Source: Muricea muricata
Taxonomy: Eukaryota; Cnidaria; Anthozoa; Malacalcyonacea; Plexauridae
Reading direction: 5' to 3'
NCBI GenBank assembly: GCA_963855995.1
Contig: OY979716.1
Span: 33,487,094 to 33,551,093 of the forward strand
Length of the DNA stretch: 64,000 nucleotides
Under the pieces are notes generated by a model that saw nothing but the letters and a program-made list of their open reading frames with translations, did not search any database and had not been told where the DNA came from. A program made the translations under genes and the position numbers. The first letter of the stretch is position 1. Every line of letters starts with the position of its first letter. Below, in pieces: positions 601 through 39,314 of the stretch.

Positions 601-683
601 ACTATATTTTTTTTAACTGAACAGTTTATACTGCATTTAGCCACCCGCGTAGCTGGCGACAACTTCTGTCGAGTTTATATTAA

Positions 684-712
684 AGAGTTATTGTCAACCA
701 CAATGCATTGCG
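684..712 (+). repeat. Left terminal inverted repeat of the Kolobok-type element
   Basis: 29-bp sequence beginning AGAGTTATTGTCAACC and ending TGCATTGCG, directly after TTAA. It is the exact reverse complement of 10657-10685. Confidence 0.75.
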
Positions 713-906
713 ATCGCCCGCAGCCATTTTACGGGTCACGAAATTCTTCTAGAAGTGTTTTGGTATTGAAATCCGAGAATATCTTATCCATCCGTATTGA
801 ATATTAAAATATTATCATTGTTTTAAGTCAAACACGTTTTCAAGTGTTCATTTACAACTTTATTTTGGTTTATTATCTTCGGTTTTGATTATTTGGGTGC
901 GACGAA

Positions 907-3900
907 ATGTCAAACTCAACGCAGCACCGAAATTAAACGAATACGCTTGGACGTCAACGTATTCAACGAGTGGATAAAAGAAAGATTCGACCGGATTTGC
1001 TGAAAAATCGCACAGTGATTTTGCCAAGTATTTGCTGAATAAGGTCGACGAGCAATCGGAGCAAAGTGATAGAAGCAGTGCGCCATCTGTAGGTAGACCC
1101 CTAGGTAAGTCGCAAATATAAGAATAACGAATTTCCTGTTTTATTTATCATTTAACTCGGTAGATTTTTTAATTGACGGTTGGCTTTTGCATTATTTTAC
1201 TTAGTACCCCCGTCCTATTCGACGCCTATGAAAAGCCAAGTGGATAGACCCTTATTTGGTCAATGTTCTCCCGTTGTCGTTGAAGGTGAATCAAGTCGCA
1301 ATGAGTAAGTTCGAAAAGTTTCATAATATCTAACCTGACTGAGTCAGGCCCTTTCCTTCATTCGCCAGGTGTTACATAATATCATGGGTTTACGGTATGG
1401 AGGTTTGCCTGTACAATATGCTTTTTTTAACATTTAAGACTGTAGATGTGACTGGATTCGCGGACACTGTCCATTCTGGTCTGAATATTAGCATGGTGGA
1501 AAGTGTATCCATGACACTAAATCCTGAGTTTGGAGCATATGCTGGAAGTGTTTCTTCAGATAGTGATGATAGTGAATCAACGTAAGTAAACTAATTTCAG
1601 TACATAGAATCTTTTTCTTATTTATCAGTGTATATATACTTACGGGAAATAACAAATTACATGTTATAAAGTTTATCTAACAAACAAGATTGTATATATT
1701 GTGCCTTCAGTGCTTTTATTGCCGATTTCAGAATATGTAAATTTTGTTTACTTTTATTGTAAGTTCAACGGTCAGTGAATCAGAATCTGAAACCAGGCCA
1801 AATTACTTGGTTGGAACAGATGAATTGTAAGTTATGCACTTCAATTATTGTGACAATTATGCCAACCATTTTGAATATAGCATATGTTGTGTATGGGCAT
1901 GAAATAGTGAGCAAGGAATGACTGCACCTGCAAGGTGTGAAATGGTCAAAAACTTGGTCAAAATAAAATTTATGCTATGATTTTTAGGAATTATTCAGAA
2001 GATTCTGCTGATGAAAGTATTTCAAGTATCAAGGACTTATCATCACCAAAAGGTGAAGAAGATATGGACATAAGTGACATCGAAGTAGTGGTAGCATTGA
2101 AGTGGTCGGAGAAGTCAATTATGGTCCTGAGACAAGAGAGGAATGGAGAAAGCGACTCACAACAAATCTGAATGAAAAGTTAAAAAAAATGAACAATTGT
2201 GGGAAGCAAAGTGAGGAACATAATAAGTATTTTTCCCAAGATAGAGTGGTAGTTGATGTTAGCATCCTGTTGGAAATGTTCAGCAAATGTCAAGTCAACG
2301 AATGTGTAGCAAAAGCAGAGGTGAAAAGGTGGCAAATTAAAGGTGGTGTAGTTGATGTTCTCTGGGCTTGTGCTGATGGCCATACTGACCACTGGATGTC
2401 TTCACATGTTGTGTGAGAAAAGAGGGCAAAAAGTATTTGTTAATACTTTGCTAATGGCTTCCTCTATTTTAAACACTGGGAACAATGGTTTTTTATCGGC
2501 ATCAACTTTCCACAGAATCCAGAGGAACTATGTTGTACCAGAAGTGTCCTCATCTTGGGAAGAAATGAAAAAGGAAATCTGGCTTGTTCTTGGAAAGGAG
2601 AGTTTAATATTGTCTGGAGATGGGAGAAGTGATTCCCCAGGTCATTCTGCTAAGTATGGCACGTATATTCTTATGGAGCAGTTCCTAGATGTCATTTGTG
2701 GACATAGAGATCATCGACAAAAGAGAAACTGGTGGAGTGTCAACAAACATGGAGGTGACCAGTCTACGAAAGCTTCTTGAAAGAATTGTTGGCAAATTGG
2801 TAGTTAGTGAAATTGTGACAGATGCATCAACTTCAATAATAGCATTGGTTAGAAAAATGAAAGGTACAGTACTGTATATTATATTTGTTGCTGCAGTAAG
2901 GTGTGAAGTTGTGCACCCCAAAACATTTTTTGCACCTCCCCCCTCCCCATTTTATGAATTGTTAGCACCAAACAAAATATTTTACACTTTCTCAAAAAAA
3001 CAGTTTGCTAACTGGCCCACTGCCCTGAAAAAAAAAACCTGGCATCAAAAATACTAGGCACCCCTCTAAAAATTTTTGCAACTTGAAGCAAAATGTAAAC
3101 TCCGTCTCTGAAAAGCCATCTCTTATTGGTATAAATAATATTTTGTTTGTTTATCTTGTAGAAAAGTAGCCTGACCATTTTTCAGACTTGTTTCATACCT
3201 TGGATATTTGGCATAAAACAATTAAATTAACGAAAAAACTTGCCAAGGTAAGTAGAGGATCAATAAAACCATTATTTTTTACCAGTCACTACAAGTGATT
3301 TTTATGTTTCTCAGACTGCCAAAGTTAATGGTTGCGGGGCAATTAATCAATGGGCAGAACCAATTAAAAATCACTTCTGGCATGTAGCTGAGCACTGCAA
3401 TGGTGATGCAGAGGTTTTAAAGGTAAGGCTCAACTTAATTTTATAATACTATGTGGTGTACTTATATACTATGCATAGCTGGCATTTTTTTGAATGGTAC
3501 AGTTGGGTGCCCCCCCTAAAAATTGTTTGCACCCCACCAAAAATACTTTGCACTCCCAGGAAAGTTTACAAACTGGATCATCTCACAAGAGTGAACCATA
3601 CCCTCAAAATTATTGCCCCCCCTCCCCCCCAAAAAAAACAAAATGTGTAAACCATAAATGCAAAAAATTGATGCACCTCTGTCATATACTTGAAAATAGT
3701 ATATAAAAAAATAAATAAACAAAGCCACATTGAAAGTCATTGTTATTTATTTTCACTAAATATTGCCAAATTTTTTTAAGGATAATTGGTTTGGTGTGCT
3801 GCTCCATGTTGCTGGCGAGCATGTATGGGCAGAAAGCGAACGCAATCATGGCCCATTGGTTGACAGAGAAACGGACAAAGTCTTTTTAGACAAAAATTCC

Positions 3901-4796
3901 AAAGCATTAGAAGCGATAAGAAAAATTGTCACAGACCCAAAATTTCTTAAAGCATTGGATCAATATGTGACATTTCGGTAAACTGATATAATGAATGCAA
4001 GAAGTTGTTTTAAATAATTTCAACAGAAGCCATTGATTGATCTAGCTCAACTGTTATATACTTACTTTGCTTTTAGGCATACCTGCAAGCTTGAAACTTT
4101 GAATTCAAAACTGAAAGTTTATAAAGGTCGCATCAACAGTTCTTTGATGTACTTTAAGCCTGGTCCTCACTAGTGACATAAGCATAAGCACCAGATAAAA
4201 CAAAAGACAAAACAAAGAAATCCACTGAAGCGTACGACGTAAGCATCGACATAAGCATATGCACAAGCGTAAGACTACGAGCATAAGCTATGGCAGAACA
4301 AAAGCAAATTCAAAAGAAAATTCGTTTTGTTTTGTCTTCGCAAACCTCAAAGGAAAATTTATCCTTTGTTATTTTGCTTATGCTTATGTCGCTAGTGAGG
4401 ACCAGGCTTTAATTCATTCAACAATAAAATGTTTGTTTTGCTCTCTAGAAATGAGGCGTATTTGGCCAGAACATTGATCGCTGTGATGGATCATAACAAT
4501 AATTTGGCAAGGAAGCTATTTTCAGTTCAAGTGGTGATCTAAAGTATCACAAAGAGTACAGCAAGAGGTCAAAACATTGGTCAGCCCAAGTAACTAAAGA
4601 CGATAAGACATATGACTTTTGGCCTCTTCTTGTTTCAAGAATTTTAAAAAAGAGGGTTGCTGATCGGAAGACCATTTTGCGAAAATCCGTTATCCCTGCA
4701 GATCACCCCAAAAATATTGCTCCTACAATTGCTATGAAACCAGTGCCTAAAACAAGTGATGTGGTCCAAAAATCGCTATCACGATATTCAAAGTGA
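907..4796 (+). pseudogene. Kolobok-like transposase, ten exons, frameshifted
   Basis: Exons with good GT/AG borders: 907-1104, 1205-1304, 1446-1581, 1764-1826, 1988-2863, 3162-3247, 3315-3422, 3781-3977, 4077 to about 4153, and 4449-4796. The early exons encode an acidic serine-rich region. The core has SGDGRSDSPGHSAKYGTYI, DKRETGGVSTNMEV, EIVTDASTS, LDIWHKTIKLTKKLAK, GAINQWAEPIKNHFWH, GEHVWAESERNHGPLVDRET and HPKNIAPTIAMKP. This is the order seen in a DDE-type transposase family common in cnidarians and fish; the aspartates of SGDGR and VTDAS and the glutamate of VWAESE are candidate catalytic residues. The first ATG (907) is in a different frame from the following residues, and further frame changes fall near 2090, 2400 and 2690. 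It ends at TGA 4794-4796. A 252-bp MITE sits in or next to the ninth intron. Confidence 0.65.
4157..4408. mobile_element. MITE with 3-bp TTA duplication (PIF/Harbinger-like size)
   Basis: Ends AGCCTGGTCCTCACTAG...CTAGTGAGGACCAGGCT are inverted repeats, flanked by TTA at 4154-4156 and 4409-4411. Subterminal repeats of the type GACATAAGCATAAGC occur at both ends. No coding capacity. The right half has a relative at 49136-49262. The superfamily is inferred only from the TSD. Confidence 0.7.
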
Positions 4797-5505
4797 AACA
4801 TGTTATTGCCACTTGTGCAAGTCTATTATAAATAAAGAGGAATTTTTCTAGCTTATTATTGAAAGGCATGGGTAAAAGATATGACTAAAAAATAAAGAAA
4901 TACTCTGGCATTTGTCAATATTTTGTTTTGAAAATTCTTGAACAGGTAAAATGAGGAGGGCAAGATCAACAATAAATAAACTGCGTGGCAATTTTTTGAA
5001 CAATGAGAAATTTAATGTAAAGTTATATCAATTAATATATAAGGGTAGAAAATGTTTATGCTCTCTTGAATCCCATATAAATGCCATCTTCTGCAGGGTA
5101 CAATTGCCTAATTGTGAGAACGGCACAAGAGGGACACACTCGTCTGTTACCCCGTCCAAGTTTTTATACCTCCCCAATATGTACTGTCTGTATGCAGCTT
5201 TTCTAAAACTGTTCGTAGAGTAATCGGGTTCCTCGGCACGTATGTCACATCTAGCCCGTATTACAAAAACAAGAACATCTCGATCGGTGCATGTGTTTTG
5301 GAAGGTGACATTATGATGTGATACACCTGACCTTTCCACAGCATTTGTCCTCTTCGTCCCTTGGCATGGGACGGCAAACGGAGTAACTACAGAATACCCC
5401 GCCACTGAAATCAATTTCTACTAAAGCACTCGCCTACTATACGCAGTCAGATTTATATGCATACTTAAACCGCGTAGCAACAAAACCTACTTAGCCTACT
5501 TTACT

Positions 5506-5775
5506 GTGCAGCCTACACAACCTACACGGCCCACACAACAAAAAATGCCTACACAAAACCTACACGGCCTACAAACCTACACGGCCTACAGACCTACACG
5601 GCCTACAGACCAACACGGCCTACATACCCACATGGCCTACAGACCTACACGGCCTACATACCCACATTTCCTACAGATCTACACGGCCTACAGACCTACA
5701 CGGCCTACAAACCCACATGGCCTACACGGCCTATAGTACATACCTACACGGCCTACACGGCCTACAGACCTACGG
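5506..5775 (+). repeat. Minisatellite of CGGCCTACA-type units
   Basis: Irregular tandem array built from short units such as CCTACACGG, CCTACAGAC and CCACATGG, about 270 bp, within the Merlin. The long Thr/Pro/Arg/Gln reading frame across it is only the repeat translated. Confidence 0.85.
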
Positions 5776-5828
5776 TCATGGCTTTATAGGATACCCTAAG
5801 GTCGAAATGTCGAGAGAGCACTGGGACC

Positions 5829-6165
5829 GAGTTGCCCCTGTGTTTTGTGTATCCCAATACATATAATAACTATCAATATCGAGTAATTCTTGGGTTGTCA
5901 CATTTCTCACTCACTGGGACTGTATCTACCTCACCAAATTTAGCTAAAGAGGGAGCGCGTAGCGCGACAATCATTACTCGACCTTCGGGCTCGCGCTTTA
6001 GCTAAATTTCGTGAAGTAGATACAGTCCCAGTGAGTGAAAATAGTTTTAATACAGCAAAACAGTGGGCTTATTGTCGCGCAACGCGCTCCCTCTTTAGCT
6101 AAATTTGGTGAAGTAGATACAGTCCCAGTGAGTGAGAAATACACAAAACACAGGGGCAACTCGAA
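5829..6165. repeat. Foldback element with nested inverted and direct copies
   Basis: Outer arms CGAGTTGCCCCTGTGTTTTG (from about 5829) and CAAAACACAGGGGCAACTCG (to about 6165). Inside, the block ending ACTGTATCTACCTCACC (5907-5973) is inverted relative to two further copies at about 5994-6043 and 6071-6141 that contain GTAGATACAGTCCCAGTGAG. No gene. Confidence 0.7.
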
Positions 6166-6389
6166 CGATAAATATTTTCAAATCGGGTACCGTCAAGAAT
6201 ATAATGCCACTCGCTTAGCTCGTACCAATTATAAAACTTCTCCAAACCAACTATCTGCATCTAACTACACGCATCACAAACGTCAAAATTTAACATAATG
6301 TGCGAATTCGTAACACAATACTGCACCCTGACCCTAACCCCAACCCTAATCCTAATCCCAACCCCAAAAACCTAACATGCATGAAATTC

Positions 6390-6579
6390 CCCTAACCCTA
6401 ACCCTAACCCTAACCCTAACCCTAACCCTAACCCTAACCCTAACCCTAACCCTAACCCTAACCCTAACCCTAACCCTAACCCTAACCCTAACCCTAACCC
6501 TAACCCTAACCCTAACCCTAACCCTAACCCTAACCCTAACCCTAACCCTAACCCTAACCCTAACCCTAACCCTAACCCT
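6390..6579 (-). repeat. Interstitial telomeric repeat, (TTAGGG)n on the minus strand
   Basis: About 31 uninterrupted CCCTAA units, preceded at 6325-6375 by degenerate copies (CCCCAA, CCTAAT, CCCCAAAAACC). The TTAGGG unit fits most metazoan telomeres. It lies inside the Merlin. The Leu/Thr and Arg/Val reading frames it produces are not genes. Confidence 0.95.
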
Positions 6580-7686
6580 TACCAGTCGTAGGAGCCCAAT
6601 AACCATCATGTACATGTTGCAAGGAAATGATCGACTGCCATTTGAAATGTAAGAATTCAATCCGAGTACAAATGATCTTGTACTTAATAAGCAAGGTACA
6701 AAATAACCTGAGCAAGAGCTCATGGACACAGCCTTCTTCTGAATGAAATTGTGCACATGTTTTGGGAAAAGCTCTTCATAATCAAAGGGAACAAACATGA
6801 CACGTCGATGTAAGTCTGCCCATGTATTCTCGTGCTGCCGGGCCAGCTTTGCTTGTTTCGACACCGACATTTTTGAAGCAATAAACAAACAAATTTTGAG
6901 CGAAGTTGTTTTAAAACGTTCTTAATTTATGGTCCAACCACGTTTGTATTAAAATAAAATAATTACTATTGTGCGTGAGAATGTAATTATACCCTGGCTA
7001 TTGCTTGCATAATGAAAGGCTCATTACACGCCAACAAAAACATAGAAGTACATCCCGAAAACAATCTACAGAATTACTTTTAAAAAAAGAGCCCTTTGAA
7101 ATTGGAGTAGCCAAAATTATTGTAGTAACCTAAGCTCTATTAATTGCTCTGAAAGACCATCAATTCGTAAAAACACAATGTAGAAAACACTTGCATGAGG
7201 GATGTATAGCTAGCTTCTTAAAGGTATGAAGCATTTGAAATTAATTCAAAGCAAGCAGAGCTGTTAGATTTATACAATACGTTGTAGAAAATTGTAGAAT
7301 TTCAATTGCTTCGTACGTTTAAAAAGTTAGCTGAATTCCTCAAGTGAATACCACATTGTGTTTGTACGAATTGATGGTATTTCAAAGCAGTTAGAACTGT
7401 CAGGTTATTACAATAGTTTTGACTCATTTCAATTTTAAAGGCGGCTCCTTGTTTTGATACACCCTGTATAGTACTTATACAGTACTGTAGACTATGCGTA
7501 TGCCCACGGCGTCGTTTTCACAAGCGTTTTGTATTGTTCCTCGATCCATATTGTTTTAAACAATAGAAAACGCTTGCGTCATCGTAGGCACTTAAAAAGC
7601 GCCATCAACGCAGATCGTAATAGCGTCTTATTAAAGAGTAACACCAACCTTCGACTCTCCAATTCCGTATTCATTAAGTGACAACC
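6580..7686. other. Non-coding interval of the Merlin, with one short hypothetical minus-strand frame
   Basis: No recognised gene. A minus-strand frame from an ATG near 6869 down to about 6705 reads MSVSKQAKLARQHENTWADL and on to VHNFIQKKAVSMSS, with balanced composition, before running into the telomeric repeat. It might be an exon of something captured. I cannot assign it. The rest is AT-rich unique-looking sequence. Confidence 0.3.
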
Positions 7687-8736
7687 ATGTACAGAGTAAA
7701 AGTCAAACGAAATATTGGAATACAAGCTGGACCTGCAACAATGGGAAAGCAAAATATGGCAACTCAGTGTGAATTGTTGCAGAACAGCAACGAAAAAAGT
7801 AGCTACCAACGTGAAATGTCAACCAGTGGTAAGCACCTTACATATGACGAACTTGTTCAAAATTTTCTGCAAAGCAACACTGCGACAGTCGAATGGTTGA
7901 AACATATCGGATTATTGGCCAGTGAAACGCTGTGCCCGACATGTTTTACTCCAATGAGATGGACAACGTGAATGGACAGATCAGATGGTTTTAAGTACGA
8001 ATGCCGTGGAGGGCAAGCGGTCAAACGTCATCGGGTAGAACAAAGTATCAGACATGGCAGTTGGTTTGAGAAAAGCAATTTAACGCTACAGGAAATAATG
8101 AAAATTACGTATTGGTCGTGTGCAGATCTTTGCGAGAGCCAAGTAAAAACACAATTACGGATTAATTCCAATACAATTGTCGACTGGTCGATGTTTTGCC
8201 GAGAAATTTGCGAGCTCAGCATAGTTCGAAGAAGTGAACCACAAGGAGGAAAAGGCATACGAGTGCAAATTGATGAAAGCAAGGTGGGCAAACGTAAATA
8301 TCACCGTGGGCATTTTGTTGAGGGACAATGGGTCTTCGGGGCCATTGAAGAGGATTCCCGCAAATGTTTTATCGCGGCCGTTGAGGACAGAACTGAAAAG
8401 ACATTGGTTTCTTTAATTCGTAAGTGGATCAAACCTCAAAGCATTATCGTGTCCGACTGCTGGAAGGGTTACATTAATCTAAGTAAATACGGCTACGTTC
8501 ACGAAACCGTGAATCATTCTCAAGAATTTGTGAATCACACAGGAGGTCACACAAATAAAATCGAGGGTCATTGGAGACAGTTAAAAACTAGTTTGCCAAC
8601 TCATGGTCGTAGAAAACATCATTATTCGTCATATTTTGCAGAATTTATGTGGCGATACATTCACAAAGGTGAAGATTTATTTAGTGTTTTTTTAGAAGAC
8701 ATTAAACATACTTATAACTTTCAGGCGCACAAATGA
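7687..8736 (+). pseudogene. Merlin transposase (ISXO2/IS1016-like DDE), one in-frame stop
   Basis: The frame from ATG 7687 to TGA 7969-7971 and the frame 7972-8736 are the same phase, so the gene is about 349 codons with one nonsense codon between MRWTT and MDRSDGFKYECRGG. An N-terminal CPTCFTPMRW zinc-ribbon half precedes the break. The ISXO2-like core follows: VQIDESKVGKRKYHRGH (first Asp), then IIVSDCWKGY (second Asp), then GGHTNKIEGHWRQLK (Glu) and HYSSYFAEFMWRY. These motifs are typical of Merlin transposases and IS1595-type relatives. The rest of the protein is intact, so the nonsense change may be recent, or a reading error. It ends 254 bp before the right Merlin end. Confidence 0.85.
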
Positions 8737-9988
8737 GTGTTTCAAATATTGATATGTTATACTATAATGTAAAGTAAAACACTTCCCATTGCATTGTATG
8801 AAATACAGCCTGCTGCTTTTCCAAAATATATTTTGCACCGAGACAGCACTGCTATATAACAATGTCTTTCAGACGAGCTGAGTCATTTAAAGGATTATCT
8901 TGCTATATCTCGCTATAATTATATCTCGCTGTAGGCTTGTAGGCTGTCAACATGACCACTTTTACTCGCGGGGTATTCTGTACTTGTACCCGGCAAACAC
9001 CGCGAGTGCACCATGATGGCTTTGTAGGTGGATAGGAGGGGACAGAACCACCAAACTCCACCAAATTTTTAGCATACTGTAAGCTTCCTTTGCCATTTGA
9101 CAAGAGCTCCGAGAGAGCTCGGTCCTTCTGCTCTTCATCTATTGTAGTAATGAATTCCTGTTGTAAAATTATAATATATGTTCAGTCCCCAGCCTAATTG
9201 TAGCACTCTCCTCTAATAAGCCAAGTCCAAAAAGTGACAAAAGCCTGTACCTTTTCAAATACAGATTAATACAGCATAAAGGGGTATGTGTTGTGTATAT
9301 TATATTCACAGAACCATTGTTTTGATGACAATTGAACAACCCCCCAGACAGGCAGACACAGTAGCCACCGCTATATTCAAAATGCAGCAATAAACCCCCA
9401 AGGGGCTATAAATGCAGACAATACGGTAATTCATTTATCATCACAGCTAATGACAAGATTTATAATCTAAAAAGAATATATTAGAACACAAAACAAAAGA
9501 ACACTCACGGAAATTTCTTGTTTTAATTTTTCCGTCGCATCTGATGCAGCGCTCAAATGCACTTCGTCCTGCGTTAGCATTTTGAATCCAGTGGTGAACC
9601 ACTTGAGCCACATTCTTTATTTTTGCAGCTTGCCTTTTTGGTTCCACACGTGCACTGCATGGTACAACGCAAACCTTCGTCGCGGCAAGGGCAACCGCGT
9701 TTTTTTCTGCCGCTGCCCTTGCTGCAAGTATTTTTACAGCTGCAATACTACAACGAAAACAAAACTGAATTTTAGGTCGAATACTATGTGCTATAAATAA
9801 ACGAATATTCTTGTAGATTCTTAGTGAATTAGGGCAAAAATATTCAACGTACTTGTCTTTCAAAGGCAATATTCGCCGACGGGCCTGCTACCAGCTGTTC
9901 TTGCTCGCCTTCTGGTCGTTCTGGAGCTTCGCAAGTGCCTCCTGTACCCAATACTTGTTGTTCAACGTAAACCGGAGAACCATAAACA

Positions 9989-10482
9989 TTAGAGACCTTT
10001 AGTTTGGCGTTTACGGCAAACGGCAAACCTGAGACACGTCCTTTGAGATAGAAATAAAACTAGTGACCGTGAAATGTTTTACCTATACGAACTATTAATA
10101 AGAATAAATACACTGCACATAGATAGATCGTTCGATCACAGACACTTGCTGACTGACGTCAATTATTTTCCTGCTTACATGGCTTCACGTTTGAATTGTG
10201 GCGTTTCATGTTTGAATTCTACAATTGAACTGCTAGACATGCTCATAGCGGCTCACTACAAACGTGAAACGTCAACTCGAACGTCAAGCGATTGAGGCCC
10301 TAAACTGTTTTCCGTCAGTGATACCTTTCGGTGGTCATACAAGTACATCGTAGATCAGTATTTTCGATTTATTGAATACATCGTTTAGTTTGAGCACTTT
10401 ACGGTTCATGATTTCGTTTTTATAATAATGAACACGCTTGAGGTTTGCCGTTTGCCGTAAACGCCAATCTAAAGGTCCCTAA
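9989..10482. mobile_element. MITE with 42-bp inverted repeats, TA target, in exon 1 of the P2X7-like gene
   Basis: Arms at 9989-10030 and 10441-10482 match at 40 of 42 positions: TTAGAGACCTTTAGTTTGGC and on, versus TTAGGGACCTTTAGATTGGC. TA borders suggest a Tc1/mariner-type target, but TTA/TAA (Harbinger) cannot be excluded because the border is palindromic. It interrupts the CXC/P2X7-like gene after DPEDDL. Confidence 0.75.
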
Positions 10483-10656
10483 TAAGGTCATCTTCCGGGT
10501 CATATCGCGAAATATTCAGATCAGAATTTGTTTCGGAGTCAGACATTTTTGCTTGAAGCTATTACAGCTTGAGATCTTCACTTCTCGCAATGGCGAATTT
10601 ACATACCAGGCGCATAATTATCATGTGTAACTTCAGTTAAAAAACAAACACAGGCG

Positions 10657-10685
10657 CGCAATGCATTGTGGTTGACAATAACTCT
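10657..10685 (-). repeat. Right terminal inverted repeat of the Kolobok-type element
   Basis: Reverse complement of 684-712, followed by TTAA at 10686-10689. The perfect 29-bp match across 10 kb, with matching TTAA on the outside, is unlikely to be chance. Confidence 0.75.
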
Positions 10686-10689
10686 TTAA

Positions 10690-11789: not shown

Positions 11790-12500
11790 TAACGAAGAAG
11801 AGGAAAATTCGAGTAGGGGTAGAGCAGCTGGAAGAGGAAGGGAATGTGGATGAGGAAACGGACAGGGAGGACAAAAAGGTGCTGGACAAGCTCCAGATTG
11901 GTGCGAATGCAGAAACTGTGTTGTTATGCCAACACAGGAAGAGAACAAGTGTTGCACAAGCACAGTGCGGCCTTGCATTTCAACACCACTTTGTCACAAC
12001 TTGTCCTCGATCCAAATGTGCTTGATCTTGCAATGCGCTTTAGAAAAGATCCTCTCGTGTTAGACAATATTAGGAGCAATGAAAACTTTAAACATGCTTC
12101 TTATAGACAGTATGTCTTGTGGCAACATGGTCGATTGGGAAGAGGCAATAGAAGAGTTGTCCTAGTTGCTGTGTGGCAGCAATACGTGCTCGCTATCCTT
12201 CACCTAATGGCATCGATACTCAGTGGCGGATCCAGAGTAAGTCAAAATAAATTAGAGCAGCTCAATTTTAAATTCAAAATAACTTTATAACAATGTCATA
12301 GGTTATGAATTTGAAAAGAATAAAATCTAATCAATGAAGTTGCTTCAAAGGTATTTTAAAATGTAAATATATCCTAGAATGAGCTGTGGTAATTTATCTT
12401 GACTTATGCACTAAGATCCGCCACTGACGATACTGAGTACAGGCCGGCAAGATTGTACACATGTGCACTAGGTACAGACTGTACAAATCGTTACAGTGTT
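11790..12500 (+). pseudogene. Second P2X7-ballast-like gene remnant
   Basis: From 11899 one frame reads WCECRNCVVMPTQEENKCC, the first cysteine block of the P2X7 ballast domain, preceded by Gly/Gln-rich sequence. The next segment, in another frame, gives LDPNVLDLAMRFRKDPLVLD, then FKHASYRQYVLWQHGRLGRG NRRV in an unbroken run. A third frame gives SCPSCCVAAIRARYPSPNGI. After a 206-bp hAT-type MITE (12221-12426) the flank resumes with DTEYRPARL. At least two frameshifts, so a pseudogene. No CXC block is visible upstream. It is outside the Kolobok borders and on the opposite strand to the copy at 5056-10546, so it is an independent copy. Confidence 0.7.
12221..12426. mobile_element. hAT-type MITE in the P2X7-like remnant
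   Basis: Ends CAGTGGCGGATC...GATCCGCCACTG. Flanked by 8-bp near-duplications TCGATACT (12213-12220) and ACGATACT (12427-12434). The 8-bp TSD and CAGnGGCGGATC ends are typical for hAT MITEs. 206 bp, non-coding. Confidence 0.85.
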
Positions 12501-25185: not shown

Positions 25186-25516
25186 AGAATGATACCTGGA
25201 ATAACGAATATTAAATATCATTGACGACTTTTAATATTATTATTATAATAACATTATTAACGATTATTAATATTATTAACGAATAACATGTAACACAACA
25301 CACTTCAAGAATGATACCTGGAATAACGAATATTGTAGATAACGTTAGCTAACTAATCATTAGGCAATTTTTTCTGATGAATGCACATCAGTGGTGTGAA
25401 ACTAGTTAGTAATAAAATGCCAAGTCAAAATTTTTGAGTTCTATTTTATAGCTATATCCTAATATGCTCTGGTCTTCCATTGAGCACTCTGCCATGTGTT
25501 GTTATATTTATATATA

Positions 25517-25517
<1 letters not shown>

Positions 25518-25614
<97 letters not shown>

Positions 25615-25640
25615 TGTATATATATATATATATATATATA
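25518..25640. repeat. (TA)n microsatellite beside the left Penelope-like element
   Basis: Two runs of TA broken by TACTGTATA at about 25610; ends directly in the pseudo-LTR at 25641. Confidence 0.95.
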
Positions 25641-25665
25641 ATTGTGCAAAATACCTCAAAAACTT

Positions 25666-25711
25666 ACCACTACAGTCTGTTTCATCCAAAGGGAATCTTC
25701 AGGTGGTAGAC
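25666..25711 (-). ncRNA. Hammerhead-like motif in the pseudo-LTR, left element downstream copy
   Basis: Same motif in the 3' pseudo-LTR of the left element, next to (TA)n. Confidence 0.4.
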
Positions 25712-25743
25712 AAATTTCGAAAATGTGCGAGCTTCTTTTATGC

Positions 25744-27909
25744 TCAAGGCGGAAACGTGGGCGCGTGGGTGGTTGAATAGCATGCATTCCTTTCTTTGTT
25801 TAGGTTGTTTACCTGAAATCTGCTTTTGTGTTGGCAGGCCGAAACTATTTCCGATCTTTTGTTAAGCAAGCAATTGTTTTTTTCTTTCAAAATACTGATT
25901 TTTTCCTCCAAACATAAATTACATCTTTTGGATCCTCCCGTGTAAGAAATAGACTTTTTTATTATGGACCATTTTATGGTGAAATCTGTTTTCTTTTGCT
26001 TTAAGTGCCAAACGTGTTTCGAAAGTTCCGTCTCGTTCGAATATTTTTTGTGTGTGAAAGATTTGATATGATTCCTGTATCGCTCTTTGAATGTGTTTGA
26101 GGTCATGCCAATGTAGTGCTTTGTGTCCTGTGTGTTGCCTGTCAAAATTGTTGCTTTGTATACAATGTCCTTACTCATGCACTTGTTCTGCAATGGGCAT
26201 GTGTGCTTGTTCCTACAGTTGCAGTTCTCTGCGCTAATGTCTTGTGGTTGGCTTTTCCTAATTATGCGTGTGTTGTGACTTGTGATAATTGACTTAACGT
26301 TGTTCATGCGGCTGTAACTGACCTTAACTGTGTTCCTATTGAAAATCTTGTGTAACTTGTTGCCTATTGGAAAGTGCGTGTCTACAAGCTTGAGGAAACT
26401 GCGTGCGATGTTTGTCTTGACATTTTTGCTAAATGGAGGGTTAAACCAAATGATGTTGCGTTGCCTGTTCCTGCGTGGTTGCTGTGTTACATGTGGCATG
26501 TATTCCAGCTTGTGGCTGAAGTTGCTATGTCCTAGTGCGTTTTGATATGTTTGTACTGCATCGTCAAATACTTGTTTGTCAGATGACAGCGTTGAAATGC
26601 GCTTGTTGATAGATGCTGGAAGTTGCCTTAAGATGCTGGGTGGGTGGTTAGAGTGCTTGTGTATGTATAACGGATCGTCATTGGGCTTCCTATAAGGTTT
26701 ATATTTTCCGGTAGAAAGGTCGAATGTTACGTCTAGAAAGTTTACCACGTGTAAATTTGATTCTGCTGTTATTTTTAGGCCAAACTGTTCGAAAATTTTG
26801 TGTAGCTCTTTCCTGGTTTTGTCTGCCAAACGTGCTGATCTGTTTTTAATAACCGCCAAACCGTCATCTCTGTACAAGCCGATGTTTTTCTTGCCAAACT
26901 TTTTTCCTAAATGGTTTAAGATGAAAAGACCTACTAGTTCGCAAATTTCTGCCCCGTCATAGCTACCCATGGTAACATCAAACAAATTGCTATTGTTGTT
27001 TTTGATCCACGGTCTTCCGTGATTGAAAAGGAGTGATTTCCTAGCGTGTTTTATTATAGAAATGTCTTCGTCCGAAATATCAGCCAAATTGGAGGCCCAA
27101 GATAGTGCTTGGTCCAGTAAATTTTCTGAAATTGACGGGTAAAAGTCGACTATGTCAAACGAAATAAAAGAATGCCTAGTTTTTTCCTCGATGCTGCCAA
27201 ACCATTCTATGACGTTTTGCGTGTTTCTCCATTGGTTTACGTTCAAAATTGTCCGAAGTTTTGTGTTTAATCTGTCCAAAATTGATTTACTAATTTTTCC
27301 GGAATCGCTTTTTGCCGGGTTGATGAGCCGGCATTTTGGGTTGGTCTGAAAATTTTCCTTATGATCTTTGAGAGAAATAAAAGCTTCGCGTTTTTTCATG
27401 CATTCAATCCGGTTGCCAATCGAAAGTTTATTTGCGATGTGGTTTAGTTCGTTGTTTATTTCCGAAATGTTTTCCTCAGATCCGTGTTTATATGTTTTTG
27501 TGATGTTGTCGTGCAAGAGCTTGTTGTATGTGTCGAGCGAGGTTTCATATATGTTCCTAGTTTTATCAGCGAAAACAAACATTTTGTCGGATGAATTGAT
27601 TTTCTTTAAGTCGTTTGCCAAAGTGTCTTGAAAATAGTCTTTTGTGTCTCGAAATTTAATGGTTTCTAGTAATTTTATAACGTCTTCTTCGAAAGGTTTC
27701 AGTTCCAAAACTGTGGGAGGTGTTTTGTTAGACGAAAGGCCGAAATTCCTAGTGTTTTCCTGACTTTTTTCTCCTTTTAGAAAGAAATGAGCTTTCCATC
27801 TCATACGTTTTAGTACGCTTTCCGCTTTTTCAATCAAATTCCTCAAATAGTTGTCCCTTGATGGTATAGGGATGTTTTTCAGTGAATAGTCTAGTCGAAA
27901 TTGCCTCAT
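25744..27909 (-). CDS. Penelope-like reverse transcriptase with GIY-YIG endonuclease, intact, left copy
   Basis: 721 codons from ATG 27909. Identical at protein level to the right copy. Domains: N-terminal KRMRWKAHFFL region; RT palm motif A SFDIVDFYPSI (Asp about 252); motif B MGSYDGAEICELVGLF; active site LYRDDGLAV (about 345-353); a C-rich linker CNCRNKHTCPLQNKC; GIY-YIG nuclease from KHYIGMTSNTFKERYRNH (about 598) with a CNLCLEEK finger; and the conserved end NKRSEIVSACQHKSRF. The protein copies its RNA onto nicked DNA. The last 15 residues (NACYSTTHAPTFPP) run into the pseudo-LTR. No stops or frameshifts, so it may be active. Confidence 0.93.
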   Translation of the reverse strand: MRQFRLDYSLKNIPIPSRDNYLRNLIEKAESVLKRMRWKAHFFLKGEKSQENTRNFGLSSNKTPPTVLELKPFEEDVIKLLETIKFRDTKDYFQDTLANDLKKINSSDKMFVFADKTRNIYETSLDTYNKLLHDNITKTYKHGSEENISEINNELNHIANKLSIGNRIECMKKREAFISLKDHKENFQTNPKCRLINPAKSDSGKISKSILDRLNTKLRTILNVNQWRNTQNVIEWFGSIEEKTRHSFISFDIVDFYPSISENLLDQALSWASNLADISDEDISIIKHARKSLLFNHGRPWIKNNNSNLFDVTMGSYDGAEICELVGLFILNHLGKKFGKKNIGLYRDDGLAVIKNRSARLADKTRKELHKIFEQFGLKITAESNLHVVNFLDVTFDLSTGKYKPYRKPNDDPLYIHKHSNHPPSILRQLPASINKRISTLSSDKQVFDDAVQTYQNALGHSNFSHKLEYMPHVTQQPRRNRQRNIIWFNPPFSKNVKTNIARSFLKLVDTHFPIGNKLHKIFNRNTVKVSYSRMNNVKSIITSHNTRIIRKSQPQDISAENCNCRNKHTCPLQNKCMSKDIVYKATILTGNTQDTKHYIGMTSNTFKERYRNHIKSFTHKKYSNETELSKHVWHLKQKKTDFTIKWSIIKKSISYTGGSKRCNLCLEEKISILKEKNNCLLNKRSEIVSACQHKSRFQVNNLNKERNACYSTTHAPTFPP

Positions 27910-28064
27910 TTTAAGGTAGAAAATTAGATTTCGAAAACGAGAGTGCACAACCAATGTAGGGTGCGGATATAATGTGCTAGTTTTGGTTAGCGAAATACAA
28001 AAGAGTGCTCAATGACATATAGACAGAGCGAAATGTATAATTGTGCAAAATACCTCAAAAACTT

Positions 28065-28110
28065 ACCACTACAGTCTGTTTCATCCAAAGGGAATCTTCA
28101 GGTGGTAGAC
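28065..28110 (-). ncRNA. Hammerhead-like motif in the pseudo-LTR, left element upstream copy
   Basis: Minus-strand version of the motif described at 28278-28321: TACCAC, CTGAAGA, short hairpin, GAAA, CAGACTG, TA, GTGGTA. Confidence 0.4.
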
Positions 28111-28192
28111 AAATTTCGAAAATGTGCGAGCTTCTTTTATGCTCAAGGCGGAAACGTGGGCGCGTGGGTGGTTGAATAGCATGCATTCCTTG

Positions 28193-28198
28193 CATGGA
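28193..28198. other. Centre of a 5.1-kb palindrome
   Basis: GCATGCATTCC then TTGCAT then GGAATGCATGC. The two Penelope-like elements are mirror images around these six bases. Confidence 0.85.
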
Positions 28199-28277
28199 AT
28201 GCATGCTATTCAACCACCCACGCGCCCACGTTTCCGCCTTGAGCATAAAAGAAGCCCGCACATTTTCGAAATTTGTC

Positions 28278-28321
28278 TACCACCTGAAGATTCCCTTTGG
28301 ATGAAACAGACTGTAGTGGTA
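28278..28321 (+). ncRNA. Hammerhead ribozyme candidate (type I) in the Penelope pseudo-LTR
   Basis: Stem I TACCAC / GTGGTA (28278-28283 with 28316-28321), CTGAAGA (28284-28290, fits CUGANGA), short stem II TCC/GGA with loop CTTT, GAAA (28303-28306 region), tiny stem III CAGACTG, and TA as cleavage site. Hammerheads in Penelope-like pseudo-LTRs are established knowledge. A U-U pair at the base of stem II and the small stem III make this a minimal one. Confidence 0.5.
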
Positions 28322-28475
28322 AGTTTTTGAGGTATTTTGCACAATTATACATTTCGCTCTGTCTATATGTCATTGAGCACTCTTTTGTATTTCGCTAACC
28401 AAAACTAGCACATTATATCCGCACCCTACATTGGTTGTGCACTCTCGTTTTCGAAATCTAATTTTCTACCTTAAA

Positions 28476-30641
28476 ATGAGGCAATTTCGACTAGACTATT
28501 CACTGAAAAACATCCCTATACCATCAAGGGACAACTATTTGAGGAATTTGATTGAAAAAGCGGAAAGCGTACTAAAACGTATGAGATGGAAAGCTCATTT
28601 CTTTCTAAAAGGAGAAAAAAGTCAGGAAAACACTAGGAATTTCGGCCTTTCGTCTAACAAAACACCTCCCACAGTTTTGGAACTGAAACCTTTCGAAGAA
28701 GACGTTATAAAATTACTAGAAACCATTAAATTTCGAGACACAAAAGACTATTTTCAAGACACTTTGGCAAACGACTTAAAGAAAATCAATTCATCCGACA
28801 AAATGTTTGTTTTCGCTGATAAAACTAGGAACATATATGAAACCTCGCTCGACACATACAACAAGCTCTTGCACGACAACATCACAAAAACATATAAACA
28901 CGGATCTGAGGAAAACATTTCGGAAATAAACAACGAACTAAACCACATCGCAAATAAACTTTCGATTGGCAACCGGATTGAATGCATGAAAAAACGCGAA
29001 GCTTTTATTTCTCTCAAAGATCATAAGGAAAATTTTCAGACCAACCCAAAATGCCGGCTCATCAACCCGGCAAAAAGCGATTCCGGAAAAATTAGTAAAT
29101 CAATTTTGGACAGATTAAACACAAAACTTCGGACAATTTTGAACGTAAACCAATGGAGAAACACGCAAAACGTCATAGAATGGTTTGGCAGCATCGAGGA
29201 AAAAACTAGGCATTCTTTTATTTCGTTTGACATAGTCGACTTTTACCCGTCAATTTCAGAAAATTTACTGGACCAAGCACTATCTTGGGCCTCCAATTTG
29301 GCTGATATTTCGGACGAAGACATTTCTATAATAAAACACGCTAGGAAATCACTCCTTTTCAATCACGGAAGACCGTGGATCAAAAACAACAATAGCAATT
29401 TGTTTGATGTTACCATGGGTAGCTATGACGGGGCAGAAATTTGCGAACTAGTAGGTCTTTTCATCTTAAACCATTTAGGAAAAAAGTTTGGCAAGAAAAA
29501 CATCGGCTTGTACAGAGATGACGGTTTGGCGGTTATTAAAAACAGATCAGCACGTTTGGCAGACAAAACCAGGAAAGAGCTACACAAAATTTTCGAACAG
29601 TTTGGCCTAAAAATAACAGCAGAATCAAATTTACACGTGGTAAACTTTCTAGACGTAACATTCGACCTTTCTACCGGAAAATATAAACCTTATAGGAAGC
29701 CCAATGACGATCCGTTATACATACACAAGCACTCTAACCACCCACCCAGCATCTTAAGGCAACTTCCAGCATCTATCAACAAGCGCATTTCAACGCTGTC
29801 ATCTGACAAACAAGTATTTGACGATGCAGTACAAACATATCAAAACGCACTAGGACATAGCAACTTCAGCCACAAGCTGGAATACATGCCACATGTAACA
29901 CAGCAACCACGCAGGAACAGGCAACGCAACATCATTTGGTTTAACCCTCCATTTAGCAAAAATGTCAAGACAAACATCGCACGCAGTTTCCTCAAGCTTG
30001 TAGACACGCACTTTCCAATAGGCAACAAGTTACACAAGATTTTCAATAGGAACACAGTTAAGGTCAGTTACAGCCGCATGAACAACGTTAAGTCAATTAT
30101 CACAAGTCACAACACACGCATAATTAGGAAAAGCCAACCACAAGACATTAGCGCAGAGAACTGCAACTGTAGGAACAAGCACACATGCCCATTGCAGAAC
30201 AAGTGCATGAGTAAGGACATTGTATACAAAGCAACAATTTTGACAGGCAACACACAGGACACAAAGCACTACATTGGCATGACCTCAAACACATTCAAAG
30301 AGCGATACAGGAATCATATCAAATCTTTCACACACAAAAAATATTCGAACGAGACGGAACTTTCGAAACACGTTTGGCACTTAAAGCAAAAGAAAACAGA
30401 TTTCACCATAAAATGGTCCATAATAAAAAAGTCTATTTCTTACACGGGAGGATCCAAAAGATGTAATTTATGTTTGGAGGAAAAAATCAGTATTTTGAAA
30501 GAAAAAAACAATTGCTTGCTTAACAAAAGATCGGAAATAGTTTCGGCCTGCCAACACAAAAGCAGATTTCAGGTAAACAACCTAAACAAAGAAAGGAATG
30601 CATGCTATTCAACCACCCACGCGCCCACGTTTCCGCCTTGA
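28476..30641 (+). CDS. Penelope-like reverse transcriptase with GIY-YIG endonuclease, intact, right copy
   Basis: 721 codons from ATG 28476 (MRQFRLDYSLKN); an in-frame TTG lies 45 bp upstream but ATG is the better start. Same domains as the left copy: RT with SFDIVDFYPSI and YRDD, linker C-cluster, GIY-YIG nuclease, and CQHKSRF end. 736-codon open frames of full identity on two mirror-image copies indicate a very recent event or an assembly duplication. Expression would come from a promoter in the pseudo-LTR, which lies directly upstream. Related but different Penelope fragments occur at 30970-31350, 31500-31815 and 33955-34565. Confidence 0.93.
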   Translation: MRQFRLDYSLKNIPIPSRDNYLRNLIEKAESVLKRMRWKAHFFLKGEKSQENTRNFGLSSNKTPPTVLELKPFEEDVIKLLETIKFRDTKDYFQDTLANDLKKINSSDKMFVFADKTRNIYETSLDTYNKLLHDNITKTYKHGSEENISEINNELNHIANKLSIGNRIECMKKREAFISLKDHKENFQTNPKCRLINPAKSDSGKISKSILDRLNTKLRTILNVNQWRNTQNVIEWFGSIEEKTRHSFISFDIVDFYPSISENLLDQALSWASNLADISDEDISIIKHARKSLLFNHGRPWIKNNNSNLFDVTMGSYDGAEICELVGLFILNHLGKKFGKKNIGLYRDDGLAVIKNRSARLADKTRKELHKIFEQFGLKITAESNLHVVNFLDVTFDLSTGKYKPYRKPNDDPLYIHKHSNHPPSILRQLPASINKRISTLSSDKQVFDDAVQTYQNALGHSNFSHKLEYMPHVTQQPRRNRQRNIIWFNPPFSKNVKTNIARSFLKLVDTHFPIGNKLHKIFNRNTVKVSYSRMNNVKSIITSHNTRIIRKSQPQDISAENCNCRNKHTCPLQNKCMSKDIVYKATILTGNTQDTKHYIGMTSNTFKERYRNHIKSFTHKKYSNETELSKHVWHLKQKKTDFTIKWSIIKKSISYTGGSKRCNLCLEEKISILKEKNNCLLNKRSEIVSACQHKSRFQVNNLNKERNACYSTTHAPTFPP

Positions 30642-30676
30642 GCATAAAAGAAGCTCGCACATTTTCGAAATTTGTC

Positions 30677-30721
30677 TACCACCTGAAGATTCCCTTTGGA
30701 TGAAACAGACTGTAGTGGTAA
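30677..30721 (+). ncRNA. Hammerhead-like motif in the 3' pseudo-LTR, right element
   Basis: Repeat of the 28278-28321 motif after the coding region. Confidence 0.4.
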
Positions 30722-30810
30722 GTTTTTGAGGTATTTTGCACAATTATACATTTCGCTCTGTCTATATGTCATTGAGCACTCTTTTGTATTTCGCTAACCA
30801 AAACTAGCAC

Positions 30811-31404
<594 letters not shown>

Positions 31405-34565: not shown

Positions 34566-35200
34566 AATGAGCCTATTGTTCTCCTTTGTTTTATTACCTC
34601 ATCAGTATACTCCATATAGAACGTGTGGTCTATGGAATATAGACCACTCAAATACAACATTGTGATTGGTCAAGTGGATGTGATCATGTTCTAACAATAT
34701 ATAGATCACTTTTCAAGAACGGTTTTTATATTGTAACAATTAAATTTTCCGTTGCTGAAGTAAGTGGTGCAGGCGATATTAGATTAACGCTGTGACGAGA
34801 AGGAGAACATACGTAAAAGATATTACTCCAGCATTGCACCAAAAACAGTTTATAAGTATTCTTCCATGAAAATTTTCTATCTATCCAAGTTAATTGCATG
34901 CAAATAATTTTGGTCTTTAATGACTCACATGCACTATAATACAAAAGCTCACATTCGTTGCCAGCCGTATAACTATGCATAAAAACAAGCTGAAAAGTTT
35001 CACTGACCTTATATATGTATAAAAGCAGAATATGTCCGAAAGATTATAATAAGGACTTATTAACCGAGTGCGAGGTCTGTACGGGGAAGTATTGCCTGAG
35101 GTTTTTCGTACAGACCGAGCGACGAAGGAGCGAGGTCTGTGCTTTAAAAACTGAAGGCAATACTTTCCCGTACAGAACGAGCAAACGAGGTTAATAAGGG

Positions 35201-35860
35201 ATTTATTATATGGCTTTGTTGAATTGCAATTTGTTGTGACTTTGCAGAAAAGAACAAAAAACGCTTTCGCTGCTAAACGCTCAGCCGTATTTATTTGGGT
35301 CATTTGTTTGTTCAGGATAGTAAAACTCGCTCAGGAAGTGATTTTCGCCGTCATTATACGGCACAATAAGTTTTAATTTCCTTCAAAATTTTATTTTTGC
35401 AATGTTTATAGGAGCAGGCAATTTATTATATGGCTTTGTTGCATTGCAATTTGTTGTGACTTTGCAGAAAAGAACAAAAAACGCTTTCGCTGCTAAATGT
35501 TCAGCCGTATTTATTTGGGTCATTTGTTTGTTCGGGATAGTAAAACTCGCTCGGGGAATGATTTTCGTCGTCATTATACGGCATAGTAAGTTTTAATTTC
35601 CTTCAAAATTTTATTTGTGCAATGTTTATACGAGCGGGCAATTTATTATATGGCTTTGTTAAATTGCAATTTGTTGTGACTTTGCAGAAAAGAACAAGAA
35701 ACGCTTTCGCTGCTAAACGTTCAGCCGTATTTATTTGGGTCATTTGTTTTTTCAGGATAGTAAAACTCGCTCGGGGAGCGATTTTCGTCGCCATTATACG
35801 GCATAATAAGTTTTAATTTCCTTCAAAATTCTATTTGTGCAATGTTCACACGAGCGGGCA
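35201..35860 (+). repeat. Three tandem copies of a 220-bp unit
   Basis: ATTTATTATATGGCTTTGTT starts at 35201, 35421 and 35641, exact 220-bp period. Parallel short reading frames in each copy (MFIGAGNLLYGFV...) follow from the duplication. Confidence 0.92.
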
Positions 35861-35925
35861 AGATGAATTTCTTGAGCGGGCAAGATGACTTTCTTGAGCG
35901 GGCAAGATGACTTTTTCCAGACCGC
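35861..35925 (+). repeat. Short tandem repeat, about 21-bp unit, three copies
   Basis: TTGAGCGGGCAAGATGACTT repeated with one variant. Confidence 0.85.
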
Positions 35926-38660
35926 TAATCAACCAATCAGCGTGCGTCATTTGTCTGAGCCATATAATAATGTATAGTACGGTTATTTTTCCCACAGCAG
36001 GCCAATGCGACAAACTGGATTTCAACGTATTTCACTGTTTATACCTGCTGTGTTTTGCATAAACGAAAACAACGAAACAAGAAAGCTTAAAAACCTTTTT
36101 TCTGCAGTGTGGAAAATCTAGTTTTTAACCTGTACAACAATCTCTTTAATGCATTTAGCTATAGATTCTTAGCAATTTGCTGTTATTAAAAAAATTCGTC
36201 AAAGTTTGCTAGAAGGTATAATATTTTGTAACTTAGGGTATAGAGTATAATAGAAACGGCGCGATGCTCCTTACATGACACAAACTATCTAGTTGTATTA
36301 AAATGTTAAGGCATGGAAGTAAGTAACATGATCACAACAGGGCACATTAGTTGGAAGAGCTTAGAAAGTGGAGTCTGCGTTACATAACAAATATTAATTC
36401 AAGTCAAAATTACATATTTACAAACCCCTCCCAAAAGAAAAAATTTTAACAAGCAAGACTTGTTACAAGCATATCGGTATATATGTATAGGGTGGAGTGG
36501 GGTTTGCAGAACTTGGTTCCGCGTGATAAACGTTTGAAAATTATGTTAAGTGTAAATTGTTATTCGCTTTGTTGGCTTAAATTACGTGTTATCTGGAAAC
36601 CTAATAAAGTCGCTTTAGGTATGCCATAATAGGGTTTTAGAATGCTTGACAAGTTTCTAAAATCCGATTTTGGTTTCACGTACGCTGAAGAGTTTGTTCA
36701 ATGTATGCATCACTGTATGGAAACAGGAAAAAAGTAGCTTTATTTTCTCGAAAGTTTGAAATAAAGCTCTATTTATACCATCTTGAACATATAAATTATA
36801 AAGCCTATCACTGCTGTAGACAATATTATAATACTTAGGCATACGAGGATTGAAGAAGTAAAAATGTGTCACTATATTGCGCTTATGGTTTTGCAAGAAA
36901 TTTAACGAGTGGTTGTTTTTTCATACAGTAAAATTAGAAGAATAATGTATGCTGTATAGAAATGAAAAAAGTAAGATAGCCATCTATAAGTTAATTGGAT
37001 ATTATTTTTGTCGTCAATGCGCCATTAGGCCTTGTATGGAAATATTGCTCTCACGAGCTTAAAATAGAACAACGATTTTTCCGTTGAAGTGGCACTTTAA
37101 CAACATTTACATGCGGATCTAAGTTAAGAGTATGGATTACGGAATTTAGTTACTATAATAAGCGTTTGGGGTTTATTCTATATCTTTACAACAGTTTTGT
37201 TAGTAACAAAGACGAGTTATCTATACATTGATCACTATTCAAGAACGCTTTTTACATTGTAACAATTAAATTTTCCGTTGCTGAACTAAGGGGTGGCTAT
37301 ATTAGATTAACGTTGTGACGAGAAGGACAACATACGTAAAAGTTATTACTCCAGCATTGCACCAAAAACAGTTTATAAGTATTCTTCCATGAAAATTTTC
37401 TATCTATCCAAGTTAATTGCATGCATATAATTTTGGTCTTTAATGACTCACATGCACTATAATACAAAAGCTCACATTCGTTGCCAGCCGTATAACTATG
37501 CATAAAAACAAGCTGAAAAGTTTTACTGACCTTATATATGTATAAAAGCAGAATATGTCCGAAAGATTATAATGTATAGTACGGTTATTTTTCCCACAGC
37601 AGGCCAATGCGACAAACTGGATTTCAACGTATTTCACTGTTTATACCTGCTGTGTTTTGCATTACGCGTGCATTGGCCGTATAAACATAAACATAAACGA
37701 AAACAACGAAACAAGAAAGCTTAAAAACCTTTTTTCTGCAGTGTGGAAAATCTAGTTTTTAACCTGTACAACAATCTCTTTAATGCATTTAGCTATAGAT
37801 TCTTAGCAATTTGCTGTTATTTTGATAAGAAAATTCGTCAAAGTTTGCTAGAAGGTATAATATTTTGTAACTTGGGGTGTACAGTATATTCGAAGCCCCG
37901 ATGCTCCTTACCTGTACATGATACAAACTATCAAATTCTATTAAAATATTTAGCAATGGAAGTAAGTAACATTATCACAACAGGGCACATTAGTTGGAAG
38001 AGCTTAGAAAGTGGGGTCTGCGTTACATAACAAATACGAATTCAGATCAAAATTACATTACAAATCCCTCCTAAAAGAAAGAAATTTTAACAAGCGAGAC
38101 TTGTAACAAGCATATCGGTATATATGTATAGGATGGAGTGAGGTTTGCAGAATTTGGTTCCGCGTAATAAACGTTTGAAAATTATGTTAAATGTAAATTG
38201 TTATCCGCTTTGTTGGCTAAAATGACGAGTTATCTGGAAACGTGATAATATCGCTTCAGGTATGCCATAATAGGGTTTTAGAATGCTTCAAGAATTTCCA
38301 AAATCCGATTTTGGTTTCACGTACGCTGAAGAGTTTGTTCAATGCATGCATCACTGTATGGAAACAGGAAAAAAAATAGCTCATGAAAATTTATTTTCTC
38401 GGAAGTTTCAAGTGATAAAGTTCTATCTATACCTTCTTGAACATATAAATTATAAAGACTATCACTGCTGTAGACAATATTATAATATTTAAACATACGA
38501 AGATTGAAGAAGTAAAAATGTGTCAATATATTGCGCTTATAGTTTTGCGAACAATTTAACGAGTGGTTGTTTTTTCATACAGTAAAATTAGAAGAATAAT
38601 GTATGCTGTAGAAATGAAGAAACTAAGATAGCCATCTATAAGTTAATTGGATATTATTTT

Positions 38661-39314
38661 TTTATTACATGAGTATAGAGATTTATTCATCGATTAGGCT
38701 GTGCGTAATAATCGTTCCAAATTAGCAATAGCCAATCGGCATCAAGAACGATAAAATTTCACTCGGTGAAAAATCATCGTTCACGGCCTTTGATTGGACG
38801 AACGATGTTTTTTCACCAGTGAAAATTTATCGTTCAGTGTTCTGATTGGCTGACTCGAACGTGCAACACCTGCTCGCAGGCTAGTGTAAACATGGAGTCT
38901 GATTTTACAAGTATTTTTTTAACTCACCGAAAAGAGAGATTTAAGACAATTTCACTGATAAAACAACCACCTAAAATCATAACGACGACATTCGTGGCCT
39001 CATTAACTTGAAATAAACCTCATGGTTTCATTTTCAGCAAGAAAACAAAGCAATAAATGGTAAGAAATTCCATTTTAATATTTTGCTTATTTGTTTTTGT
39101 CAGTAAGATATATCCGTATCTTTATACACTCATCTTTATACTCATGTAATAAACAAATTACTTCATGGTTGGTTCGTTTATACGATTTTTATTATTCACT
39201 CGTTGTGAAGGATCGCTAAACTCACTCGTTCGCTGCGCTCACTCGTTCGTTTAACGATCCTTCACAACTCGTGAATAAAAATCGTACGCACTCACCAACC
39301 ATGAAGTAATCTCT
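38661..39314. mobile_element. Insertion of about 650 bp between array units
   Basis: The empty site at about 42590 reads GGATATTATTTTTGTAGTCAA; here it is split. Inside are a CGTTC-family block (38698-38850, inverse of 11360-11525) and a foldback at 39157-39310 with about 57-bp arms (ATTACTTCATGGTTGG ... CCAACCATGAAGTAAT). Confidence 0.7.

Follow-up and report, generated by a model that had tools for sequence, protein, structure and literature searches.

A probable Kol0-type Kolobok transposon in Muricea muricata and its second gene, the P2X7 ballast-bearing KolX

The stretch of DNA analyzed here, hereafter called the window, covers 64,000 nucleotides of the Muricea muricata genome (contig OY979716.1, C1:33487094-33551093 of an assembly of 453 Mb in 74 contigs), and its segment 680-10689 is, with a probability that we put at about 90%, a dead Kolobok DNA transposon of the Kol0 type in which the gene for a protein with the ballast domain of the P2X7 receptor, KolX, is borne by the element itself. 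The two arms of the element, at 680-712 and 10657-10689, are complementary at 33 of 33 positions and consist of TTAA plus a 29-bp terminal inverted repeat (TIR). The left target-site duplication TTAA (680-683) is followed by the left TIR on the plus strand (684-712, starting 5'-AGAG), and the right TIR on the minus strand (10657-10685) is followed by the right TTAA (10686-10689). The same 4-bp TTAA duplication flanks both ends of copies L009, L010 and others in the genome, and the termini AG...CT have the form 5'-RR...YY-3' that distinguishes Kolobok from piggyBac elements (Kojima and Bao 2022; PMC9587614). Between the arms lie two convergent genes: that of the transposase has its ATG at 907 on the plus strand, 223 bp inside the left end, and its stop at 4794-4796, while that of KolX starts on the minus strand with an ATG at 10546, 139 bp in from the right end, its ballast frame ending at 5059 and its stop lying at 5056-5058, which leaves about 260 bp between the two stops. 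This layout bears out an earlier sequence-only reading of the window, which had described 29-bp inverted ends flanked by TTAA, gene starts about 220 and 140 bp from the left and right ends, respectively, and stops some 260 bp apart; that reading did not report the decay of the element, neither of whose genes is intact, frameshifts being present in both.

The transposase gene (907-4796, plus strand) comprises several exons and was delineated from translations, matches and relatives. Its plus-strand pieces include, in order, those carrying the first D (about 2505-2699) and the second D (2692-2859), the DxxH motif (3203-3214), the piece with the last E (3781-3978) and the C-terminal pieces (4447-4793). 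The assignment to Kolobok rests on these motifs, since Pfam returned only a sub-threshold Mutator match: the relative P0147 shows DGRNDSPG, VTDAS, DIWH and GEHEW in the order of the DDD/E plus C/DxxH signature, and the same pieces are found in copies of the element in the M. muricata genome. Between C/DxxH and the last E, where a Kolobok transposase would have a zinc finger, C, HFWH and C can be made out by eye in this order in the relative P0143, one C being missing in P0147. The gene is interrupted at 4144-4421 by a small unstranded insertion, identified by its inverted arms, which has a relative at 49127-49261 of the window and is absent from L009, where the flanking transposase pieces lie about 10 bp apart.

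The pseudogenized KolX gene (5056-10546, minus strand) encodes an N-terminal YGSP part, a CXC-like cysteine block (9613-9747), a helix region together with the first zinc cysteines of the ballast (8991-9160) and, C-terminal to a large insertion, the main part of the P2X7-type ballast (5059-5379). The proposed ballast domain is confirmed: the piece in the window matches Pfam P2RX7_C weakly (E 0.043), the homologous open piece of L009 strongly (E 1.2e-19), and, as in Kol0 elements, this second protein combines a P2X7-type ballast with seven cysteines. The ballast fold is supported by structure prediction, the model of the relative P0093 having a mean predicted local distance difference test score (pLDDT) of 70.3 and being confident mainly from about residue 120 onward; a fold search with the part outside the CXC-like block returned weak rows only. 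Compared with the ballast of the P2X7 receptor (Pfam P2RX7_C, PF20478), identity is about 25% in the superposition, and in place of the channel part of the receptor KolX has the N-terminal CXC-like block; accordingly, Pfam scans of eight relatives of 235-309 amino acids gave P2RX7_C alone. A cysteine block is thus present as the sequence-only reading had claimed, but its naming as a CXC domain did not stand beyond resemblance. No Pfam CXC family was returned for P0008, P0009, a family-B CXC exon or eight further relatives, in scans whose filters drop most weak matches, and no PDB sequence matched the block at E<=10, leaving its equation with the Pfam CXC (tesmin/TSO1) domain unsupported. A search of NCBIfam yielded no relevant match (one weak unrelated row). 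The relatives with an organism name, among 120 listed out of 512, are all anthozoan; 29 and 37 pattern matches in viral and prokaryotic contigs, respectively, contained no confirmed relative of KolX.

Two insertions interrupt the KolX gene, and the sister copy L012 has neither of them. The larger (5380-8990, plus strand, 3.6 kb) is flanked by an 8-bp duplication, CGGCAAAC, at 5372-5379 and 8991-8998, and contains a transposase frame of the DDE_Tnp_IS1595 family at 7972-8736. We take it to be a Merlin element, given its likeness to these transposons in the IS1595-type transposase and the 8-bp target duplication; it is a guest in the Kolobok element and no part of it. A telomere-type CCCTAA array of about 190 bp (6390-6580) lies inside this insertion. 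The smaller insertion, an unstranded inverted repeat of 0.5 kb, occupies about 9988-10483 in the first KolX exon; at its site a gap of the same size is seen in L010 and none in L012 or L009.

The TIR pattern, searched with up to three mismatches, has 31 matches in the 453-Mb genome, against none for the pattern read backwards. Twenty TIR regions were fetched, without the middles of two insertions (1.6 and 3.2 kb), the examined set comprising all matches except five (C1:53.46M, 88.22M and 90.01M, C2:69.17M and C3:15.34M); L024, L025, L026, L027 and L028 were covered over some 10 kb starting at a single end. The window insertion and its flanks occur in four copies in both orientations within C1 33.49-34.12 Mb, forming a segmental duplication cluster: the window copy, L010, L012/13 and L014/15 share flanks and are therefore segmental duplicates of one insertion. 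Conversely, L009 (5467 bp including both TTAA) and a second subfamily, formed by L016/17, L018/19, L020/21, L023 and L028, with a DNA identity of 67-86% across the gene pieces that could be matched, have flanks that differ from those of the window cluster and thus represent independent insertions. Both genes are present in the window cluster, L009, L016/17, L018/19, L020/21, L023 and L028 (from its one end), with L016/17 containing a second transposase and KolX set nested within the outer one. In the proposed check on other copies bounded by the TIR and TTAA, transposase and ballast gene hence recur together in eight of ten inward-facing TIR pairs, four of the eight being the single window insertion. 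The other pairs are L011, whose ends are diverged and whose transposase is decayed, and L022, a 225-bp TIR pair without genes. Among the one-end reads, pieces of KolX are seen in L024 (N-terminal and CXC) and L027 (N-terminal) and pieces of the transposase in L025, while about 10 kb of L026 showed no piece of either gene. No full-length copy without the ballast gene was found, L011 being damaged and diverged, and the ballast genes are not confined to host loci devoid of TIRs.

The association extends well beyond these copies. A search with the L009 ballast gave 546 candidates, of which the best 150 (all at E 7.6e-22 or better, corresponding to 148 genes as two genes matched twice) were scored and joined by coordinates, with no rows dropped beforehand, to the best 150 of 528 candidates for the transposase core. 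A listed transposase core lies within 5 kb of 84 of the 150 scored ballast matches and within 8 kb of 93, the nearest one being convergent and downstream in 93 of 93 pairs; within 12 kb there are 99 convergent pairs and two in another orientation. If double matches are counted once, 92 of the 148 genes are paired within 8 kb and 97 within 12 kb. By comparison, 1000 rotations of the transposase positions produced on average 0.65 pairs of 150, and at most five, at 12 kb. Around the 30 best of the 150 ballast matches, viewed with 1.5 kb on each side, a convergent transposase C-terminus is found at 27 loci and a CXC-like exon near the ballast at 25.

The two genes also diverge together. Pairwise distances of the ballast and of the transposase C-terminus correlate across 27 loci (r 0.693; none of 2000 permutations as high), to a degree similar to that of two transposase segments with each other (0.681); nevertheless, the nearest neighbor is identical for both genes at just 13 of the 27 loci. 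Pairs with fewer than 30 shared positions were left out of this comparison and of that of the ratios of nonsynonymous to synonymous change (dN/dS), whose medians exclude pairs with a proportion of synonymous differences (pS) that is zero or saturated. Between families A, B and C, the ballast shows pS 0.80-0.92, near saturation, with a proportion of nonsynonymous differences (pN) of 0.060-0.084, and among family B copies pS 0-0.014 with pN 0.016-0.020. Over 30 loci, its median dN/dS declines from 1.11 in recent pairs (pS <0.05, 24 pairs) to 0.042 at pS 0.60-0.74 (32 pairs). At this higher divergence the CXC-like exon has a median of 0.146, the helix region one of 0.155 and two transposase segments 0.141 and 0.176, whereas in recent pairs the CXC-like exon stands at 0.975, the helix region at 0.445 and the segments tp6 and tp7 at 1.108 and 0.703, respectively. 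KolX is under purifying selection between families and changes almost neutrally between recent copies, which broadly fits a protein that is required for spread and loses its constraint once the element has inserted. Recurrent convergent linkage and co-divergence together support the proposal that the ballast family has spread partly as accessory genes of transposons, which for the M. muricata genome accounts for a copy number of at least 148 ballast genes.

Several observations weigh against an element-borne KolX. No transposase core is listed within 12 kb for 49 of the 150 scored ballast matches; for six of them (L038, L039, L045, L054, L012/13 and L020/21) other evidence shows a transposase, so that 43 remain unpaired with the best 150 of 528 transposase candidates. 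Two matches have their nearest transposase in another orientation, L036, L044 and L056 among the 30 best loci lack a transposase C-terminus within 1.5 kb, and L011 has a transposase without a ballast gene visible to tblastn. Moreover, the matches are not independent insertions, since the window cluster contributes four of them and others resemble recent copies. The recent-bin dN/dS of the helix region and of tp7 lies below 1, and the 30 loci were picked by ballast similarity, which biases the comparison of constraint towards the ballast.

The existence of unpaired matches would fit a chance insertion of a Kolobok element next to, or enclosing, a normal ballast gene of the host, and the conserved neighborhood of ballast genes in several animals, reported in the passages of Rump et al. 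(2020; PMC7016195) considered here, points the same way. This explanation is, however, extremely improbable and was rejected: the uniform orientation of the 93 nearest neighbors, the rotation control and the co-divergence of the genes contradict it as a general account. Another possibility is that the ballast entered the transposon lineage by capture of a host gene, and that P2X7 obtained its tail from this host gene and not from the transposon. In its favor is the conservation of the ballast gene neighborhood from sponge to sea urchin (the same passages of Rump et al. 2020; PMC7016195), but KolX diversity tracks that of the transposase, suggesting an old association, and the passages of Kojima and Bao (2022; PMC9587614) considered here argue that KolX was the source. 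We regard this capture as rather unlikely, to the same degree as a reading in which KolX, still encoded by the element and under selection, shields it from the host by opposing silencing or keeping its DNA accessible. Selection and linkage would fit such a shield equally well, as would the finding that KolX, in the window as well as in the other copies examined, is a separate convergent gene unfused to the transposase; conversely, the very low dN/dS of the ballast would be unlike the fast change of an arms race.

In an intact element of this kind, the gene of a DDE transposase would converge with that of KolX, a protein made up of an acidic N-terminal YGSP part, the CXC-like block of cysteines and a zinc ballast of the P2X7 type. 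Kolobok-family transposases cut and join at TTAA, and the one described here, with its D-D-DxxH-E motifs, would cut and paste at this site. KolX would be needed for mobility, most likely as a zinc-stabilized cofactor whose CXC-like block might bind, at the ends of the element, either DNA or the transposase, and whose ballast might make protein contacts. That it is a cofactor in the transposition complex, and does not counter host silencing, is a guess to which we give about even odds. A more specific version appears doubtful, though slightly less so than the capture and the shield: KolX would be an obligatory second component of Kol0, more constrained than the transposase, its CXC-like block contacting DNA and its ballast contacting nucleotide, zinc and partner proteins, and the P2X7 ballast would be a retired part of the transpososome, with the zinc and guanine-nucleotide sites as leftovers. 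The tail of P2X7 would have been gained later from a KolX-like gene, as already proposed in print.

Indeed, the connection between KolX and P2X7 is not new. The passages considered here of the 2022 publication report that Kol0 Kolobok elements encode KolX, a protein with the ballast fold of P2X7, trace P2X7 itself to a fusion with KolX and regard Nanor as a likely case of KolX domestication (Kojima and Bao 2022; PMC9587614). The window element resembles that system in the TTAA duplication, the 5'-RR termini, the DDE transposase with DxxH and the ballast protein with seven cysteines; as far as can be told it is a new family or a new copy, and may already sit in a repeat library. Among the titles listed in our literature searches, no further one pointed to a link of Kolobok or KolX with P2X7. 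The main text of the 2022 publication (PMC9587614) contains none of the words CXC, convergent, selection and purifying. The finding is thus a correct independent rediscovery, and the quantitative evidence added here is absent from the passages considered. Ballast proteins without a channel have also been described in invertebrates, at fewer than 10 per species (Rump et al. 2020; PMC7016195); these ZCD/NANOR-like proteins resemble KolX in being short, without a channel and with a C-terminal ballast, whereas the passages considered name no transposon and the M. muricata genome alone carries the much larger number of genes given above. Receptor biology has yet to settle what the P2X7 ballast does, and if the domain was indeed shaped within a transposon, as published and as the linkage, co-divergence and selection described above support, its ancestral function would become accessible to a transposition assay. 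Some of the relatives found carry the names 'P2X purinoceptor 7' or '7-like', and coral and anemone genes annotated in this way may be transposon genes.

Scaffold C1, with 124 of 453 Mb (27% of the assembly), holds 116 of the 150 scored ballast matches, 117 of the 150 scored transposase matches and 25 of the 31 TIR matches, and Kolobok therefore looks strongly concentrated on this single scaffold. Just beyond the right TIR, at about 11823-12230 on the plus strand, there is a decayed and more divergent fragment of a ballast gene, followed by a short insertion that reads as hAT-like; the transposase pieces tried found no transposase near this fragment within the window. Elsewhere in the window, a near-perfect palindrome of 5.4 kb (25503-30922, 98%) contains twin open frames of 754 amino acids at 25747-28008 (minus) and 28377-30638 (plus), the latter without a Pfam match; it may reflect either a genuine inverted element or a fold-back introduced by the assembly. 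A long-repeat array at 34697-44366 has offsets of about 1.6 kb and multiples thereof, with pieces 79-97% alike. Finally, the plus-strand frame at 61008-61691 encodes a TNP-like RNase H domain (PF21787, E 1.8e-11) and is probably a transposon relic.

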